Part shown: positions 5,050-14,293 of the stretch, piece by piece | Numbering within the stretch: position 1 is the stretch's first letter | How the letters are laid out: each line of letters begins with the position of its first letter | Source of the DNA: a virus | Length of the DNA: 25,343 bases | IMG/VR virus record: IMGVR_UViG_3300046804_003130 | Span: 1 to 25,343 of that record | Strand: one strand, 5' to 3' | Notes under the pieces: model-generated | Seen by the model: the letters and a program-made list of their open reading frames with translations, nothing else | What the model was told of the DNA's origin: nothing | Databases searched by the model: none | Program-made: the position numbers and the translations under genes

Positions 5050-6023
5050 ACAAGTTCCAAATCAAGTGTTTTCAGATTGATAGACATGAAGTCTTGTGTT
5101 GGTTTAGAGACGTAAAGAGACCCGTCTTTAGTGTGTGCAAAGAAGTCACTTGAAGTAGCTCCTGCCATGATGGGAGCAAACCACTGATGAATACGATTTG
5201 ACTTTTCTCTGTCACAACTATATTGATAGTCAATATTCATCTTTTTTAGTCTATCATTTGCTCTAAAGAGAATATATTGTTTCAAATCGTTGGGATTAAT
5301 TGTGGTGACTGACCGACCGTCAAAAATTTTATCAATGAAAGCATATTCATTCTGAATGACAGAATCAAATCCTTGAATGATTTCTTCCTGTTCTGTTTTG
5401 GTTAAACCTTCTTCTTTGACCAACTGATTAAATAGTTTGATTCCACCCTCGCTGTGTTCCTGTTCATCAAGTGCAGACCAAGAAATAATCTGTGCAATTC
5501 CTTTATAACGTCCAGTCAGATTAAGAGATAATAGTACTGCAAATGAACTGAACAATGATACTCCCTCGGCGCCGCCGGAAAAAATAGCCAGAGAAACCTT
5601 TTCTGATTTTTCTCCAAGAAAATATTCAAGTTTCTTCCTTGCTACTGGGTCACCTAGAAAAGCTTCAAATTCATCTAGACCGAGGGTATCAGATAAAAGA
5701 TTATATGCTTCTGCATGAATTTGTTCGAATAAAGAAAATGCCCTAGCCATTGCAGCTACTTCGTGTTTTGGAAACCACTCTGGCACTTTAGACCAATAGT
5801 CACCAACGTGACATTCTAGTTGAGTAAATCCTCGCAGAATTCCACCAATAACTTCTCTCTCATCATTGGTGCCATTTTGCCAATCACGAATATCAGACTC
5901 AAAACTTACTTCTTGTGCTCTCCAAACAGAAGCAACTGCCTTCTGATATATTTCAAAATATTCTGGGAATTCAAAACTTCCTTTTTCTTTGTACGCTTCT
6001 CGATATTGTCGAATAGATGTCAT
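5046..6023 (-). CDS. nrdB: Ribonucleotide reductase class I small subunit
   Basis: NrdB houses the di-iron centre and tyrosyl radical that starts catalysis in NrdA. Of the 325 residues, the metal ligands map to Glu70 (TQLECHVGDYW), Glu100 and His103 (FEQIHAEAY), Glu154 (GGAEGVSLFSSF), Glu187 and His190 (LDEQEHSEGG). Tyr107 stands four residues after His103, exactly where the E. coli radical Tyr122 lies, so this is a Tyr-radical class Ia-type subunit and not a radical-free variant. It is upstream of and translationally coupled to nrdA. A late-core ATAAATA and the gp45 terminator separate it from gp45. The interaction tail for NrdA is the last ~15 residues (NLKTLDLELV). Confidence 0.97.
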   Translation of the reverse strand: MTSIRQYREAYKEKGSFEFPEYFEIYQKAVASVWRAQEVSFESDIRDWQNGTNDEREVIGGILRGFTQLECHVGDYWSKVPEWFPKHEVAAMARAFSLFEQIHAEAYNLLSDTLGLDEFEAFLGDPVARKKLEYFLGEKSEKVSLAIFSGGAEGVSLFSSFAVLLSLNLTGRYKGIAQIISWSALDEQEHSEGGIKLFNQLVKEEGLTKTEQEEIIQGFDSVIQNEYAFIDKIFDGRSVTTINPNDLKQYILFRANDRLKKMNIDYQYSCDREKSNRIHQWFAPIMAGATSSDFFAHTKDGSLYVSKPTQDFMSINLKTLDLELV

Positions 6024-8026: not shown

Positions 8027-8097
8027 GCGGATATAATGTAACGGTAACATGGCAGCCTTCCAAGCTTCTCTTACGGGTTCGAATCCCGTTATCCGCT
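8027..8097 (+). tRNA. tRNA-Gly(TCC)
   Basis: Acceptor GCGGATA / TATCCGC, D-stem ATGT / ACAT, loop CTTCCAA giving TCC (reads GGA), T-stem ACGGG / CCCGT. One C-T mismatch sits in the anticodon stem. Its last base is also the last base of the stop codon of the convergent HNH gene. Confidence 0.9.
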
Positions 8098-8381
8098 TAC
8101 CTATGATAATTAGGTAATCCAGCGTGAAGTTCACGATGACAATTAGCACAAAGAATCATACATTTGTCTGCTTCTTGTATAAGTCTTTCAAGTGACCAAG
8201 ATTTTCCGGATAAACTAAAATCCTTTTGATTTGGGTCTTTATGGTGAAATTCAAGTGCTTCAATACACTTATTGTAACCACATATTTCACAACAACCTCC
8301 TTTGTGTTCAACTAATTTTTGTTTGGTTCTCTTTCTCCAAGCAATAACATTTTTGACTACTTTTTCTTTATTTCTTGCCAT
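8097..8381 (-). CDS. HNH homing-type endonuclease lodged between tRNA genes
   Basis: A free-standing HNH nuclease, 94 aa from the ATG at 8381 (an ATG four codons earlier, at 8393, is the alternative). Zinc-binding and catalytic pattern: CEICGYNKCIEALEFHHKDP, then CMILCANCHRELH, the H-N-H motif with two CxxC pairs. Residues before it are basic and likely contact DNA. It is a close paralogue of the HNH domain encoded at 8634. Its gene runs against the tRNAs, begins next to tRNA-Asn and its stop codon shares one base with tRNA-Gly. A TATAAATA late core (8407-8414) lies 26 nt upstream of the chosen start, which is why I prefer 8381. Such genes spread by cutting sites in related phages that lack them. 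Confidence 0.9.
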   Translation of the reverse strand: MARNKEKVVKNVIAWRKRTKQKLVEHKGGCCEICGYNKCIEALEFHHKDPNQKDFSLSGKSWSLERLIQEADKCMILCANCHRELHAGLPNYHR

Positions 8382-8406
8382 ATTGATTAACATAAATAGT
8401 TAATCA

Positions 8407-8633: not shown

Positions 8634-9185
8634 ATGGAAAAACAAAAATTAATTGAATATATTGAATTAGGATTTTCGATATCTGAAATATCTAAACTTG
8701 AAAATAGGTCAAATACAACAGTTAGATATTGGTTAAATAAGTTTAAATTAAAAACAAAAAATAAATCATTTAAAAATGGATATTTAAACAAAAATATTTC
8801 TAAAATTCAAAAAATAGATGGAATTCCAATACAACATTGTTCTGAATGTAAAATTTTATTAAATAATGAAAATGGATATTGGAGAAAAAATAAATCTATA
8901 TGGAGTTCTAAATGTAAACAATGTACATCTAAACAAGATAACAGATGGAGAAATAATAAACAAAAAGCAGTTGAGTATAAAGGTGGTAAGTGTCAACATT
9001 GTGGATATAATAAATGTATTGATGCTTTAGAATTTCATCATACAGACCCATCAACAAAAAATGAAAATTTTTCAAATATAAAATTAAAAAAATGGGAAAC
9101 TCAAAAGCAAGAGCTTGACAAATGTATTTTATTGTGTTCTAATTGTCATAGAGAAGTTCATTATAAACTCAGAAATAACGCCTGA
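8634..9185 (+). CDS. HNH homing endonuclease with N-terminal helix-turn-helix
   Basis: A 183-aa nuclease. Residues 1-40 form a helix-turn-helix (IEYIELGFSISEISKLENRS, then TTVRYWLNKFKL), a likely DNA-reading module. A zinc knuckle pair (HCSECKILL, CKQC, about 64-95) follows, and then the HNH domain (CQHCGYNKCIDALEFHHTDP, then CILLCSNCHREVHY). That domain is clearly paralogous to the protein at 8097-8381, which lacks the N-terminal part. Codons are more AT-rich than the neighbouring phage genes. The final Ala codon and stop lie within the first six bases of tRNA-Leu(CAA), so the gene ends exactly where the tRNA begins. No good Shine-Dalgarno sequence precedes the ATG. Confidence 0.9.
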   Translation: MEKQKLIEYIELGFSISEISKLENRSNTTVRYWLNKFKLKTKNKSFKNGYLNKNISKIQKIDGIPIQHCSECKILLNNENGYWRKNKSIWSSKCKQCTSKQDNRWRNNKQKAVEYKGGKCQHCGYNKCIDALEFHHTDPSTKNENFSNIKLKKWETQKQELDKCILLCSNCHREVHYKLRNNA

Positions 9186-9261: not shown

Positions 9262-9299
9262 AAGCGGTTGGTCGCAGGTTCGAATCCTGCTCGGGACGT
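9262..9299 (+). pseudogene. tRNA 3'-half remnant
   Basis: A T-arm GCAGG-TTCGAAT-CCTGC followed by TCGGGAC-G, that is, a T-arm, acceptor 3' strand and discriminator base. No matching 5' acceptor (GTCCCGA expected), D-arm or anticodon arm is present upstream, because tRNA-Leu(CAA) ends two bases before it. A deletion that removed the 5' half of a former tRNA is the simplest reading. Confidence 0.75.
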
Positions 9300-9328
9300 T
9301 GACCTAAACAAGTCATTAAACTGTTTAT

Positions 9329-10263: not shown

Positions 10264-10268
10264 TATTT

Positions 10269-10341
10269 GCTCTCTTAGCAATCTGGTGAATGCATCCGAC
10301 TCATAATCGGACGGAGGTGAGTTCAATTCTCACAGGGAGCA
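10269..10341 (+). tRNA. tRNA with CAT anticodon (Met elongator, or Ile2)
   Basis: Acceptor GCTCTCT / AGGGAGC, anticodon stem CCGA / TCGG with loop CTCATAA giving CAT, T-arm GTGAG-TTCAATT-CTCAC. It could be elongator Met or a lysidine-modified Ile(CAT); sequence alone does not decide. Three G-C pairs before the loop, typical of initiator tRNA, are absent. Confidence 0.88.
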
Positions 10342-10344
10342 TAG

Positions 10345-10515
10345 ACCTAATTTATGTCTTTAAACTAAATTCTTTTTAGTCGGACTTGGGTGCAATTCCC
10401 AAATGGTCCACTACAAGGGCCATAATTAGTCTCGACGGCTAAAATGTAAATAAACAAATCTCAACAACATTGTTTCATTTACTCGCCAGACCGTTCTGGT
10501 ATAGAGTATAAATAT
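10345..10515 (+). ncRNA. ssrA: Circularly permuted (two-piece type) tmRNA
   Basis: tmRNA acts as tRNA-Ala and mRNA to rescue stalled ribosomes and add a tag peptide. The acceptor half comes first: CGGAC (10381-10385), as precedes the T-arm in bacterial tmRNA, T-arm TTGGG-TGCAATT-CCCAA (10386-10402), acceptor strand ATGGTCC (10403-10409) and discriminator A. A 6-nt link (CTACAA) follows. The coding half then has acceptor strand GGGCCAT (10417-10423), which pairs fully with ATGGTCC and includes the G3-U70 pair that marks alanine identity, then TCGACGG (10432-10438), the D-loop hallmark. CTAAAA (10439-10444) pairs with TTTTAG (10374-10379) as helix P2. The tag frame at 10463-10501 reads NNIVSFTRQTVLV and stops at TAG (10502-10504). 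Cyanobacterial tags read ANNIV...RQ.APVAA. The outer ends are estimates and CCA is not encoded. Confidence 0.93.
10507..10514 (+). promoter_or_regulatory. Possible late promoter TATAAATA after the tmRNA tag
   Basis: An exact TATAAATA sits three bases after the tag stop codon and upstream of the big palindrome and tRNA-Thr(TGT). It could drive late expression of that tRNA, or be coincidental AT-rich sequence at the tmRNA 3' end. Confidence 0.3.
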
Positions 10516-10547
10516 TTTTGAGAAGTACATTAATGTACTTCTCAAAA
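10516..10547. terminator. Perfect 32-bp palindrome, likely terminator or processing stem of tmRNA
   Basis: Arms of 16 bp (TTTTGAGAAGTACATT and its complement) meet without a spacer. The arms start with four T and end with four A, then ATTTAAAAT, so the hairpin could end transcription in both directions, although no pure U-run follows. Confidence 0.55.
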
Positions 10548-10558
10548 TTTAAAATAAT

Positions 10559-10641
10559 GCTGGTGTCGCATAGTGGTTGATTGCACGGCACTTGTAATGC
10601 CGCTCCGGAAGGACACGCAGGTTCAAATCCTGTCACCAGCT
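10559..10641 (+). tRNA. tRNA-Thr(TGT)
   Basis: Acceptor GCTGGTG / CACCAGC, anticodon stem CGGCA / TGCCG with loop CTTGTAA giving TGT (reads ACA), T-stem GCAGG / CCTGT. The variable region is about 14 nt with a short TCC / GGA stem, longer than usual for Thr. Confidence 0.9.
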
Positions 10642-10658
10642 TGATAAATAAAAATGAC

Positions 10659-10687
10659 TTGAATGTCGGCAAACTTTCAAGTATAAT
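10659..10687 (+). promoter_or_regulatory. Sigma70-like promoter inside the inverted repeat
   Basis: TTGAAT (10659-10664), 17 nt, TATAAT (10682-10687). The start would fall inside the following hairpin, so this promoter would make a transcript starting in a terminator stem, which may keep the stem from forming. Confidence 0.45.
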
Positions 10688-10690
10688 ATA

Positions 10691-10714
10691 GGAGGGATTT
10701 AAATCCCTCCTTTT
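10691..10714 (+). terminator. Terminator at the end of the tRNA cluster
   Basis: A perfect palindrome, GGAGGGATTT / AAATCCCTCC, is followed by TTTT. It is the strongest stop signal after the tRNA operon. Confidence 0.8.
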
Positions 10715-10715
10715 A

Positions 10716-10723
10716 TATAAATA
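10716..10723 (+). promoter_or_regulatory. Late promoter TATAAATA for the HNH gene at 10753
   Basis: Exact T4 late consensus, 29 nt upstream of the ATG. Confidence 0.55.
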
Positions 10724-10752
10724 ATTTTTTGCCGACATTCAACAAAATAATT

Positions 10753-11364
10753 ATGCCTAACTGGTCAGAAGAAGGTTTTTCTCGTATTGTAGAAAATGGA
10801 AAAAGAAGTGGTAAAATATCAAAGGAAAAATCTAAAAAATTACAAGATGAGTATTATAATAATCCCAAATTATGTTTAGAATGTGGAAAAATAATTCCAT
10901 ATAATAAAAAAACTGAAAGTAAATTTTGTAATCATTCATGTTCAGCAACTTTTAATAATAAAATAAAAAAGAAAAATAAATTTTGTTTGTTGTGTGGTAG
11001 TAAAATCAATAAAGGTTCATCAAAATATTGTTCATCCAATTGCCAACAAATTTATCTTTACAACCAGAGATTAAATGACTGGATAAATGGAAATAGTAAA
11101 CCAAAGTCTAGAGATTTTTTCAGAAAATATTTAACAGAAACTCACGGTTATAAATGTTCTTGTTGTGGTATTAATGAATGGAATAACAAACCCATAGTAT
11201 TGGAAATAGACCATATTGATGGAAACTCTGAAAATAATACACCAGAAAATTTAAGGTACATCTGTCCCAATTGTCATTCTCAAACCGAAACATATAAAGG
11301 TAAAAATATTGGCAGAGGAAGACATTATAGAAAAATTAGATATAAGGCTGGACAAAGTTATTAA
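10753..11364 (+). CDS. HNH endonuclease with zinc ribbons
   Basis: A 203-aa HNH nuclease, started at the ATG at 10753 (an in-frame TTG at 10729 inside the inverted repeat is less likely). Order of parts: a basic N-terminal helix (SRIVENGKRSGKISKEKSKKLQ, in segments), a first zinc ribbon (CLECGKIIPYNKK, then FCNHSCSATF), a second ribbon (FCLLCGSKINKGSSKYCSSNC), and the HNH domain near residues 140-180 (CSCCGINEWNN, then LEIDHIDGNSENNTPENLRY and ICPNCHSQTETYKG). This LEIDHIDG..NN..NLR..CPNCHSQT pattern is typical of phage free-standing HNH homing endonucleases. It differs from the pair at 8097 and 8634. It lies right after the tRNA cluster, with a late promoter of its own. Confidence 0.9.
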   Translation: MPNWSEEGFSRIVENGKRSGKISKEKSKKLQDEYYNNPKLCLECGKIIPYNKKTESKFCNHSCSATFNNKIKKKNKFCLLCGSKINKGSSKYCSSNCQQIYLYNQRLNDWINGNSKPKSRDFFRKYLTETHGYKCSCCGINEWNNKPIVLEIDHIDGNSENNTPENLRYICPNCHSQTETYKGKNIGRGRHYRKIRYKAGQSY

Positions 11365-11622: not shown

Positions 11623-12516
11623 ATGAAGCTTCAATCTATTGTATTTTCTAGTTTGATTTTTGCCTCTTCTCCCGTATTTGCTTCGATTCCTGATTCACAA
11701 TTTAAGGATGTTCAACCTACCAATTGGGCATATCAAGCAATTCTACAACTGAAGGAAACTTACGGTGTTGCTAAGGGTTATCCTGATGGCACTTTCCGTG
11801 CTGGTCAACCCGCAACTCGTGCTGAACTCGCGGCTCTAGTGAATGCTACTCTTGATGAAATCACCACTTATGTTGATTCCAAGGATGCTTCTCTGGCACA
11901 AGCACTCCGTGCTGAATTTAATTCTGAACTTGCTGCTCTGCGTCAGCAACAAGACAAGACTGCTTCTCAAGTTGCTGCTATTCAAACCGTTGCTGCTGTA
12001 AAGGCGCAGGGTGTTGGAAACTACCTTGGTGCTGCTGTTCTACTGAATAGTCAAGGTCAAAATGGTGGTGGCAAGGATGCCAATGGCACTGTTTCTGGTG
12101 TTACTATTCAGGGTCGTTATCAAGTATTTGAACTTGGTCGTGATGCAATCTCGGTTCGTCCTTATGTGAACTTCGCCGCTGGAGCAAATTCCCAGTTTGG
12201 TGCTGCTGGTGGTGTTCTTGCCACTTATGATTGGAGCATTGCTCGTGCTCAAGTTGCTCCCAACAAGACTGTAAGTGCTGCTAACATCTACCTTGGTGGT
12301 GGTGGTCAGATTCCTTTTGTGAATGGTACTCCTGCCAATAACCAAAGTTCTATTGGTCAAGGTGGACAAGTTGTTTTTGTTAGTGGTATTGAAGGTCGCC
12401 TGACTGATAGCATTACTGGGTTCGCTGACCTGAAGTGGCCGACTACCAATGCTGGTGCTTCTACTGGTTCTGGTTATAGTCCGGTGGCAAGTGCAGGTCT
12501 TGCACTGAAGTTCTAA
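11623..12516 (+). CDS. Exported SLH-domain, porin-like outer-membrane protein
   Basis: A 297-aa protein with a signal peptide (MKLQSIVFSSLIFASSPVFA, cleavage after A20). An S-layer homology domain follows (FKDVQPTNWAYQAILQL, then GVAKGYPDGTFRAGQPATRAE, about 27-75), then a coiled coil (about 80-125, ALRAEFNSELAALRQQQDK) and a Gly/Ala/Asn-rich region of alternating strands ending in ALKF. That order (SLH, coiled coil, beta-barrel with terminal Phe) is the plan of cyanobacterial outer-membrane porins of the SomA type. The barrel here is about 170 aa, much shorter than the usual 350-400, so it would be a small or incomplete barrel. Codons are GC-richer than the neighbours, which hints at acquisition from a host. 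A strong terminator follows. Confidence 0.85.
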   Translation: MKLQSIVFSSLIFASSPVFASIPDSQFKDVQPTNWAYQAILQLKETYGVAKGYPDGTFRAGQPATRAELAALVNATLDEITTYVDSKDASLAQALRAEFNSELAALRQQQDKTASQVAAIQTVAAVKAQGVGNYLGAAVLLNSQGQNGGGKDANGTVSGVTIQGRYQVFELGRDAISVRPYVNFAAGANSQFGAAGGVLATYDWSIARAQVAPNKTVSAANIYLGGGGQIPFVNGTPANNQSSIGQGGQVVFVSGIEGRLTDSITGFADLKWPTTNAGASTGSGYSPVASAGLALKF

Positions 12517-13367: not shown

Positions 13368-13790
13368 ATGAGTAAGATGAAAAGAGATCGTAAATTTATC
13401 GAACAATGTTTTGTTTTGGCACAATCTGTAGAAAGATTTCCCAATGCAAAATTGGCATCAATGATTGTCCTGGGAAATCGTATTATTTCCTATGGATGGA
13501 ATCAATCAAAAACTCACACCTTTGTGAGAAAATATTCTCGATTTGGTGAAGACCATTGTTATCTTCATGCTGAAGTTCATGCTATTAAAAATGCACTTCG
13601 TATCATTGACCCCGAGGATTTAGAAAAAGCAACTCTCTATGTTGCTCGTGCAAAAAGACCAGATAATAAATCAAAGAGATGGATTTATGGTCTGGCAAAA
13701 CCATGTGAAGGTTGTCAAAAAGCAATTGATGATTTTTCTATCAGACGAGTAGTTTATACACTTGACGGTAAAGGATTTAGTTATTTGTGA
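13368..13790 (+). CDS. Zinc-dependent nucleotide deaminase-family protein, first of a tandem pair
   Basis: A 140-aa protein with the cytidine deaminase fold signature: HAEVHAIKNAL (about 67-77, with zinc His and catalytic Glu) and PCEGCQKAI (about 112-120, with two zinc Cys). The strand patterns MIVLGNRIISYGWNQSKTHT and RRVVYTLDGKGFSYL flank it. The substrate is not clear: dCMP-deaminase-like, but shorter than the gene that follows and with no close match to it beyond the motif. Related tandem deaminases occur in other cyanophages. The start at 13368 lies directly behind a terminator hairpin without a clear ribosome site; ATG 13377 is the alternative. Its TGA stop overlaps the GTG start of the next gene. 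Confidence 0.8.
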   Translation: MSKMKRDRKFIEQCFVLAQSVERFPNAKLASMIVLGNRIISYGWNQSKTHTFVRKYSRFGEDHCYLHAEVHAIKNALRIIDPEDLEKATLYVARAKRPDNKSKRWIYGLAKPCEGCQKAIDDFSIRRVVYTLDGKGFSYL

Positions 13791-14293
13791 ATCAAAATAA
13801 ACAAGACAAACTAGACAAAATTTATCTAGAGATTGCAAAACTATTTGCTTCAATGAGTGAGGCAGAAAAACTTAAAGTAGGTGCAATTGCAGTCAAAGAC
13901 AAAAGAATCATCAGTACAGGCTGGAATGGTACACCATCTGGGTGGCACACAAATGAGTGTGAGGAAAAAATAGTAATTTACCCAGAAGGATTTCTTTCTC
14001 CGGAAGAATACTTAGAAATGGGTTATCATATCAATAATGGTGAAATTTATCGATATGAAACCTATCCCGAAGTATTACATGCTGAACAAAATCTACTCTG
14101 TAAAGTGGCTAAATCAACTGATAGTTTAGAAAATTCAGATGTATATTGTACTCATTCTCCTTGTCCAAATTGTGCCAAACTATTAGCTCAATCTGGTATC
14201 AACTCATTTACCTACATTGACGATTATAAAGATTTGTTTGGAAGGACTCTCTTAGAACAATTAGGTGTTAAAGTGAGGAAGATAAGTGGATGA
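13787..14293 (+). CDS. cd: dCMP deaminase
   Basis: Converts dCMP to dUMP, the substrate of thymidylate synthase, and so feeds the ThyX encoded downstream. The 168-aa protein shows IYLEIAKLFASMSEAEKLKVGAIAVKDKRIISTGWNGTPSG (in segments), the standard deaminase N-terminus, then LHAEQNLLCKVAK (zinc His and catalytic Glu) and HSPCPNCAKLLAQSGI (zinc Cys pair). An insertion between residues 60 and 100, with Cys and His positions in GWHTNECEEKI, matches the T4 and eukaryotic type dCMP deaminase, which is allosterically controlled by dCTP and dTTP. The start is GTG, overlapping the previous stop (GTGA), so translation is coupled. Length is slightly below T4 Cd (193 aa). Confidence 0.92.
   Translation: MNQNKQDKLDKIYLEIAKLFASMSEAEKLKVGAIAVKDKRIISTGWNGTPSGWHTNECEEKIVIYPEGFLSPEEYLEMGYHINNGEIYRYETYPEVLHAEQNLLCKVAKSTDSLENSDVYCTHSPCPNCAKLLAQSGINSFTYIDDYKDLFGRTLLEQLGVKVRKISG

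Follow-up and report, generated by a model that had tools for sequence, protein, structure and literature searches.

Evidence for a compact, circularly permuted tmRNA gene among the tRNA genes of a T4-like cyanomyophage

Between two tRNA genes of a virus record (IMG/VR IMGVR_UViG_3300046804_003130) lies a short element that an earlier note had read as a circularly permuted tmRNA gene. Is this element such a gene, and could so small an RNA still act in the rescue of stalled ribosomes? The locus is known from this one uncultured 25-kb record, analysed here over its whole length of 25,343 bases ("the window"), and the evidence is that of its sequence. The record carries T4-like replication genes (NrdA, gp44, gp45, the gp62 clamp-loader subunit, and a T4-type RNase H) as well as NrdB, ThyX, and PhoH, the last three recognised by reading of the open reading frames. 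By gp44, the closest matches belong to the Synechococcus phages S-CREM1, S-CAM7, and S-CRM01, with 56-58% identity, and the window therefore represents a divergent cyanomyophage lineage. ARAGORN called 13 tRNA genes in the record; the element shares their strand and lies between tRNA-Met (10268-10342) and tRNA-Thr (10559-10641).

Several other features of the window are worth recording. HNH-type genes lie among the tRNA genes at 8097-8393 (minus strand), 8634-9185 (plus), and 10732-11364 (plus), the last identified through PHROGs and the other two by CxxC...HH motifs; they may mark mobile elements within the cluster. Positions 9262-9300 (plus) resemble the 3' half of a tRNA (GGTCGCAGGTTCGAATCCTGC) where no tRNA was called, and are perhaps a tRNA remnant. 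A 386-aa protein encoded between two clamp-loader genes (953-2113, minus) matches Pfam DruA, a Druantia defence protein, over residues 92-191 (44.8 bits; cut-off, 27) and also PHROG 19197, of unknown function; the S-CREM1 gene at this position is annotated "iron-binding protein". S-CREM1 also has an "iron uptake porin" close to its clamp genes, and the window encodes a protein (11623-12516, plus) whose N-terminal part is an S-layer homology domain, as in cyanobacterial porins. Two neighbouring deoxycytidylate-deaminase-family genes occupy 13368-14293 (plus).

Architecture and identity of the element

The elements named in the earlier note were all found where it had placed them, on the plus strand and in the permuted order that it had claimed, with the T-arm and the 3' strand of the acceptor stem encoded ahead of the acceptor 5' strand. 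The acceptor RNA piece, which is the 3' part of a standard tmRNA and is encoded first, spans 10343-10410 (sequence, ARAGORN, and covariance match); its putative 5' end abuts tRNA-Met, and its 3' end is the discriminator base A73 at 10410. It contains the 3' strand of helix P2 (10374-10382), the motif CGGAC (10381-10385), a T-arm supported by alignment and covariation (10386-10402; TTGGG-TGCAATT-CCCAA, a 5-bp stem and a loop with G at position 55), and the acceptor 3' strand ATGGTCC (10403-10409), in which U70 is paired with G3. An intervening sequence of 6 nt, CTACAA, is assigned by its position to 10411-10416; tRNA-processing enzymes would be expected to remove it, and intervening sequences of 5-6 nt also occur in most phage relatives and in some Prochlorococcus. 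The coding RNA piece, which is the 5' part of a standard tmRNA and is encoded second, starts with the RNase P-type 5' end GGGCCAT and extends over 10417-10515, as judged from sequence and alignment, with a putative 3' end. In it, the acceptor 5' strand GGGCCAT (10417-10423) is followed by the D-loop region AATTAGTC-TCGAC (10424-10436, by alignment), with TCGACGG at 10432-10438, and by the 5' strand of P2 (10436-10444). CCA is not encoded. Sequence and covariation both support the 7-bp acceptor stem ATGGTCC/GGGCCAT, and P2, earlier described as 6 bp long, is present with 9 bp, all nine of them standard pairs, and as a helix covaries over 23 sequences. Between the coding piece and tRNA-Thr, a perfect 14-bp inverted repeat (10516-10547) is a possible processing hairpin, as judged from its predicted fold; it is terminator-like on the minus strand only.

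We assessed this assignment with covariance models. The Rfam model RF04321 (tmRNA_permuted) matches 10376-10448 at 42.9 bits, with E values of 2e-7 in a 401-base search and 3e-9 in the record, under the family's gathering cut-off of 47 bits. Such a cut-off is a threshold for annotation and no structural criterion of the family. The cyanobacterial model to which the earlier note had pointed, RF01851 (cyano_tmRNA), was absent from the matches listed for the element. The best clan match at the same place was alpha_tmRNA at 27.8 bits, and beta_tmRNA was also weak. An independent model, built from 22 aligned tRNA-like domains (TLDs) of relatives gathered by DNA patterns in virus contigs and from cultured phages, with the window left out, matches 10373-10445 at 63.1 bits (E 4.4e-17); no other site in the window scores above 19.4 bits. 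ARAGORN likewise called a permuted tmRNA, at 10320-10883, but chose the wrong tag. Among 60 shuffled windows, the bare core architecture arose twice and never together with G3-U70 or GGAC. A blastn search of the 221-bp element against phages gave nothing relevant because the element is too divergent for DNA similarity. We conclude that this T4-like cyanomyophage almost certainly carries, within its tRNA cluster, a circularly permuted (two-piece) tmRNA gene.

Base pairing and a tertiary contact

All 21 expected pairs form in the window tmRNA, G3-U70 included. Across an alignment of 23 sequences (22 relatives and the window), 94.6% of cells hold standard pairs, 15 of the 21 pairs show two-sided changes, and G3-U70 is present in every row. 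No shuffle among 500 did as well, and sliding the partners reduced pairing to 42-53%. Five pairs of the window carry two-sided changes seen in none of the 22 other rows, three in the acceptor stem (columns 31/51, 32/50, and 34/48) and two in P2 (columns 6/68 and 7/67). The loops covary as well. In 12 distinct sequences the second base of the T-loop (position 55) is a G, and each of them has AG four bases ahead of TCGAC; a further 79 have T or C there, each combined with GG or GC. This rule holds in 91 of 91, and the window, with G55 and AG, conforms to it. We read this covariation as the tertiary contact between T-loop and D-loop.

The fold of 10343-10514 has a z score of -4.8, which no shuffle equalled, and in its free-energy minimum P2 gives way to two local hairpins, by a margin of 1.7 kcal/mol. 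A 12-bp AU-rich hairpin (10446-10482; 10446-10457 with 10470-10482) is predicted in the minimum-free-energy (MFE) fold around the resume codon, and its energy was equalled in 7 of 1,000 trials when the upstream 15 nt were shuffled. An H5-like hairpin is predicted directly ahead of the stop codon (10485-10500; GCCAGA-CCGT-TCTGGT); hosts and S-CAM1 have hairpins of different sequence at this place, as seen by eye. Another MFE helix, of 12 bp between the two ends of the element, was rejected: leader shuffles equalled it in 27 of 300 trials, and it was not found conserved in relatives.

Relatives, tag, and reduced form

The earlier note knew of no permuted tmRNA in a cyanomyophage. For the class this is wrong, since 53 two-piece tmRNAs predicted by ARAGORN were already reported among isolate phages, 50 of them aquatic, with a tree in which cyanobacteria and their phages have a cyanobacterial tmRNA lineage in common (PMC9004378, 2022). 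The tmRNA database paper holds 79 phage sequences, and Northern blotting had confirmed the two-piece, permuted tmRNA of Prochlorococcus (PMC1242208). We found permuted copies in at least seven cyanophage genomes, S-CAM1, S-CAM3, S-SSM7, S-CRM01, S-CBWM1, Sf-FS3, and AG-345-P14, none of whose records names a tmRNA in its feature table. The covariance model matches these at E values from 1e-15 to 4e-25, although six of the seven, or close copies of them, are among the sequences from which it was built. In a further 12 cyanophage genomes, chosen because of other similarities, no match was convincing (S-SRM01 has one of 19.5 bits), and presence in cyanophages is therefore sporadic. Two-piece tmRNA genes thus recur in cyanophages, yet are almost unannotated. 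In relatives, too, they adjoin tRNAs. The window gene is accordingly of a known class; its compact form, changed resume codon, and changed tag end are unusual, as is the presence of an alphaproteobacterial-type T-loop and D-loop together with a cyanobacterial-type tag.

Permuted tmRNA genes are also widespread in IMG/VR virus contigs, with 82 exact pattern matches (L004-L085) and 29 in a further search (L258-L285); many of these loci have SAR11-type tags, and some may be host or provirus sequence. Among the cyanophage-like sequences, S-CAM1 (L218) has an Rfam wcaG RNA match at 5566-5662 (83.5 bits, twice the cut-off), and L226, a contig with tRNAs and a tmRNA, has a Group I intron match at 1328-1514 (61.8 bits).

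The tag frame runs over 10460-10504 (CTC AAC AAC ATT GTT TCA TTT ACT CGC CAG ACC GTT CTG GTA TAG) and encodes LNNIVSFTRQTVLV followed by a stop, as supported by its sequence, its relatives, and an excess of synonymous differences. The NNIVSFTRQ frame proposed earlier is thus present and of picocyanobacterial type, with the correction that the resume codon would be CTC, which makes the tag (A)LNNIVSFTRQTVLV. It fits the (A)N[NK]IV.F.R type of cyanobacterial permuted tmRNAs, and its best matches are the phage tags ANNIVAFTRQTALV (L226 and others) and ANKIVAFTRQTALV (L061). Compared with L061, the tag has 11 nucleotide differences, 7 of them in third positions, with 3 residue changes and no shift of frame or stop; random changes did as well in 0.17% of trials (P 0.0017). 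L061 was found without a tag pattern and is the fairer comparison, L226-L236 having been found by tag pattern, which biases a synonymous test on them. The resume codon is CTC in the window versus GCN in 154 of 154 other loci (114 host and 40 phage), a comparison whose fair part is the phage count and the tag-free pattern, since the host loci were found by a pattern requiring GCN. CAAA at -5 to -2 of the resume codon is identical in L226, and frame setting is therefore consistent. The window tag ends in VLV rather than VAA, the ending in 113 of the 114 host loci, and phage tag ends vary (VAA, ATA, VTA, LV, VAV, VVA, CA, and AAL).

Compared with its relatives, the window tmRNA is the most compact form that we observed. 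Only 23 nt separate TCGAC from the resume codon, a stretch that measures 51-53 nt in hosts and 41-71 nt in other phages, and these 23 nt leave no room for pseudoknot 1; the predicted plain 12-bp hairpin stands in its place. After the stop codon, the 3' pseudoknot element GGG...CACCC (GGGGTG...CACCC in hosts) is absent from the sequence, and the S-CRM01 tmRNA also lacks the 3' pseudoknot domain. Pattern searches found no close relatives with the same short form, and a gp45 search for closer relatives gave two distant loci only. The picocyanobacterial RF01851 RNAs of Prochlorococcus and Synechococcus resemble the window in their permuted order, short intervening sequence, lack of an encoded CCA, G3-U70, and NNIV.F.RQ tag, and differ from it in the T-loop (TTCGATT versus TGCAATT) as well as in spacing, resume codon, and tag end. 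The cyanophage tmRNAs, both of the named isolates and of IMG/VR contigs L061 and L226-L236, are like the window in lying beside or within tRNA genes and in their NNIV/NKIV tags; those tested score 72-128 bits with RF01851, and the window is the most reduced of them. L226-L236 further share with it the bases before the resume codon and the AG of the D-loop, and have a comparable tag end, TALV. The tmRNAs of SAR11-type and other marine phages (Melnitz, PMC9004378) are likewise phage encoded and permuted, and many combine the T-loop TGCRATT with a D-loop AG, but their tags are alphaproteobacterial (ANDNFAS..ALAA type), unlike the cyanobacterial tag of the window.

Capture of the gene from a host, as the earlier note proposed, is uncertain: the tag is cyanobacterial, but the T- and D-loops are of alphaproteobacterial type, and in its tag the window stands nearest to other phages. 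Among the 114 host loci, no TLD is closer than the TLDs of other phages, which disfavours direct capture. The T-loop TGCAATT and the D-loop AATTAG resemble those of alphaproteobacterial-type tmRNAs of virus contigs L016 and L052; AATTAG is common to the window, L052, and the phage loci L227 and L228, and the T-loop of the L226 group is GGCAGTA. A hybrid origin from a SAR11-phage tmRNA was considered as well: these loops would fit it, but overall TLD identity, at 64% to the best alphaproteobacterial-type and 61% to the best cyanobacterial-type sequence, does not decide. A mosaic of alphaproteobacterial-type loops and a cyanobacterial-type tag is possible on these sequences; drift with a compensating tertiary pair would be the simpler alternative.

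A role in trans-translation and its rivals

How might such an RNA work? The tmRNA would be transcribed together with the tRNA cluster, and tRNA-processing enzymes would cut the transcript into an acceptor piece of ~55-68 nt and a coding piece of ~95-130 nt, which would stay joined through the acceptor stem and the 9-bp P2. The host CCA-adding enzyme, alanyl-tRNA synthetase (via G3-U70), SmpB, and EF-Tu would deliver the RNA to ribosomes that had stalled on broken mRNA; with CTC 10460 as the point where translation resumes, A-LNNIVSFTRQTVLV would be added, so that the predicted tagged product ends in ALNNIVSFTRQTVLV. The rescue of ribosomes on decaying mRNA, the role suggested in the earlier note, is thus plausible. 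We infer that the gene at 10343-10515 is likely functional in tagging. Loss of pseudoknot 1 is compatible with function because a hairpin can replace it with tagging kept; two-piece tmRNAs with fewer pseudoknots are also described (reviews, PMC3968760). The tagging step may nevertheless be impaired, given that pseudoknot 1 and a downstream pseudoknot are missing and that the resume codon is seen in 0 of 154 others.

The same losses could be explained if the RNA were charged and bound SmpB without tagging, thereby inhibiting host trans-translation, as proposed for mycobacteriophage DS6A. The DS6A tmRNA is, like that of the window, a phage tmRNA of reduced size; it consists of the TLD only, and a TLD-only phage molecule inhibits tmRNA (PMC4131195, PMC11915505). 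The tRNA-like domain is also the most conserved part of the window gene, with pseudoknot 1 gone and a resume codon other than GCN. DS6A has no tag frame, however, and the window keeps one, with its stop and with differences biased towards synonymous ones, none of which a decoy would need; we consider this explanation improbable. The element might also be a relic in decay, left from a tmRNA that an ancestral phage had captured, with a TLD that folds in a gene that no longer works. This would account for the small size, lost domains, changed resume codon, and score under the Rfam cut-off. Decay would break pairs, and this reading is therefore disfavoured by the 21 of 21 pairs left intact despite ~36-40% sequence change from the nearest TLDs; the tertiary pair and the tag frame are kept as well, and we rate it slightly below the decoy.

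Two further explanations have very little probability. tmRNA genes are common integration sites (PMC11915505), and the element could be an attachment-site remnant of a host tmRNA gene left by an integrating element, but the whole gene is present and diverges from every host sequence, in a T4-like replication region, and no integrase was seen in the window. Its location in a tRNA cluster and the similarity among T-arms might point to a tRNA pseudogene or to chance folding; RF00005 has no match at 10376-10448, the independent model gives E 4e-17, and shuffles never combine the tmRNA marks, so that for practical purposes this is refuted. The best explanation as a whole, which we hold with good confidence, is that of a compact permuted tmRNA gene whose product would be processed, charged, and used for tagging during infection. 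The fuller proposal that it is a working tmRNA free of pseudoknots, with a leucine resume codon and a tag without -AA, combining an alphaproteobacterial-type tRNA-like domain with a cyanobacterial-type tag, is tentative and, as a package, rather doubtful.

If it were true, the phage tmRNA would free stalled ribosomes while altering the fate of the tagged protein. Given the varied phage tag ends versus the host VAA, what becomes of proteins with a phage tag is a specific question that experiments can address. Host, S-CAM1, S-CRM01/L226, and window tmRNAs form a natural deletion series that bears on which tmRNA parts are dispensable, and a stripped-down cyanophage tmRNA with an unusual tag would be a useful test of the minimal RNA for ribosome rescue.
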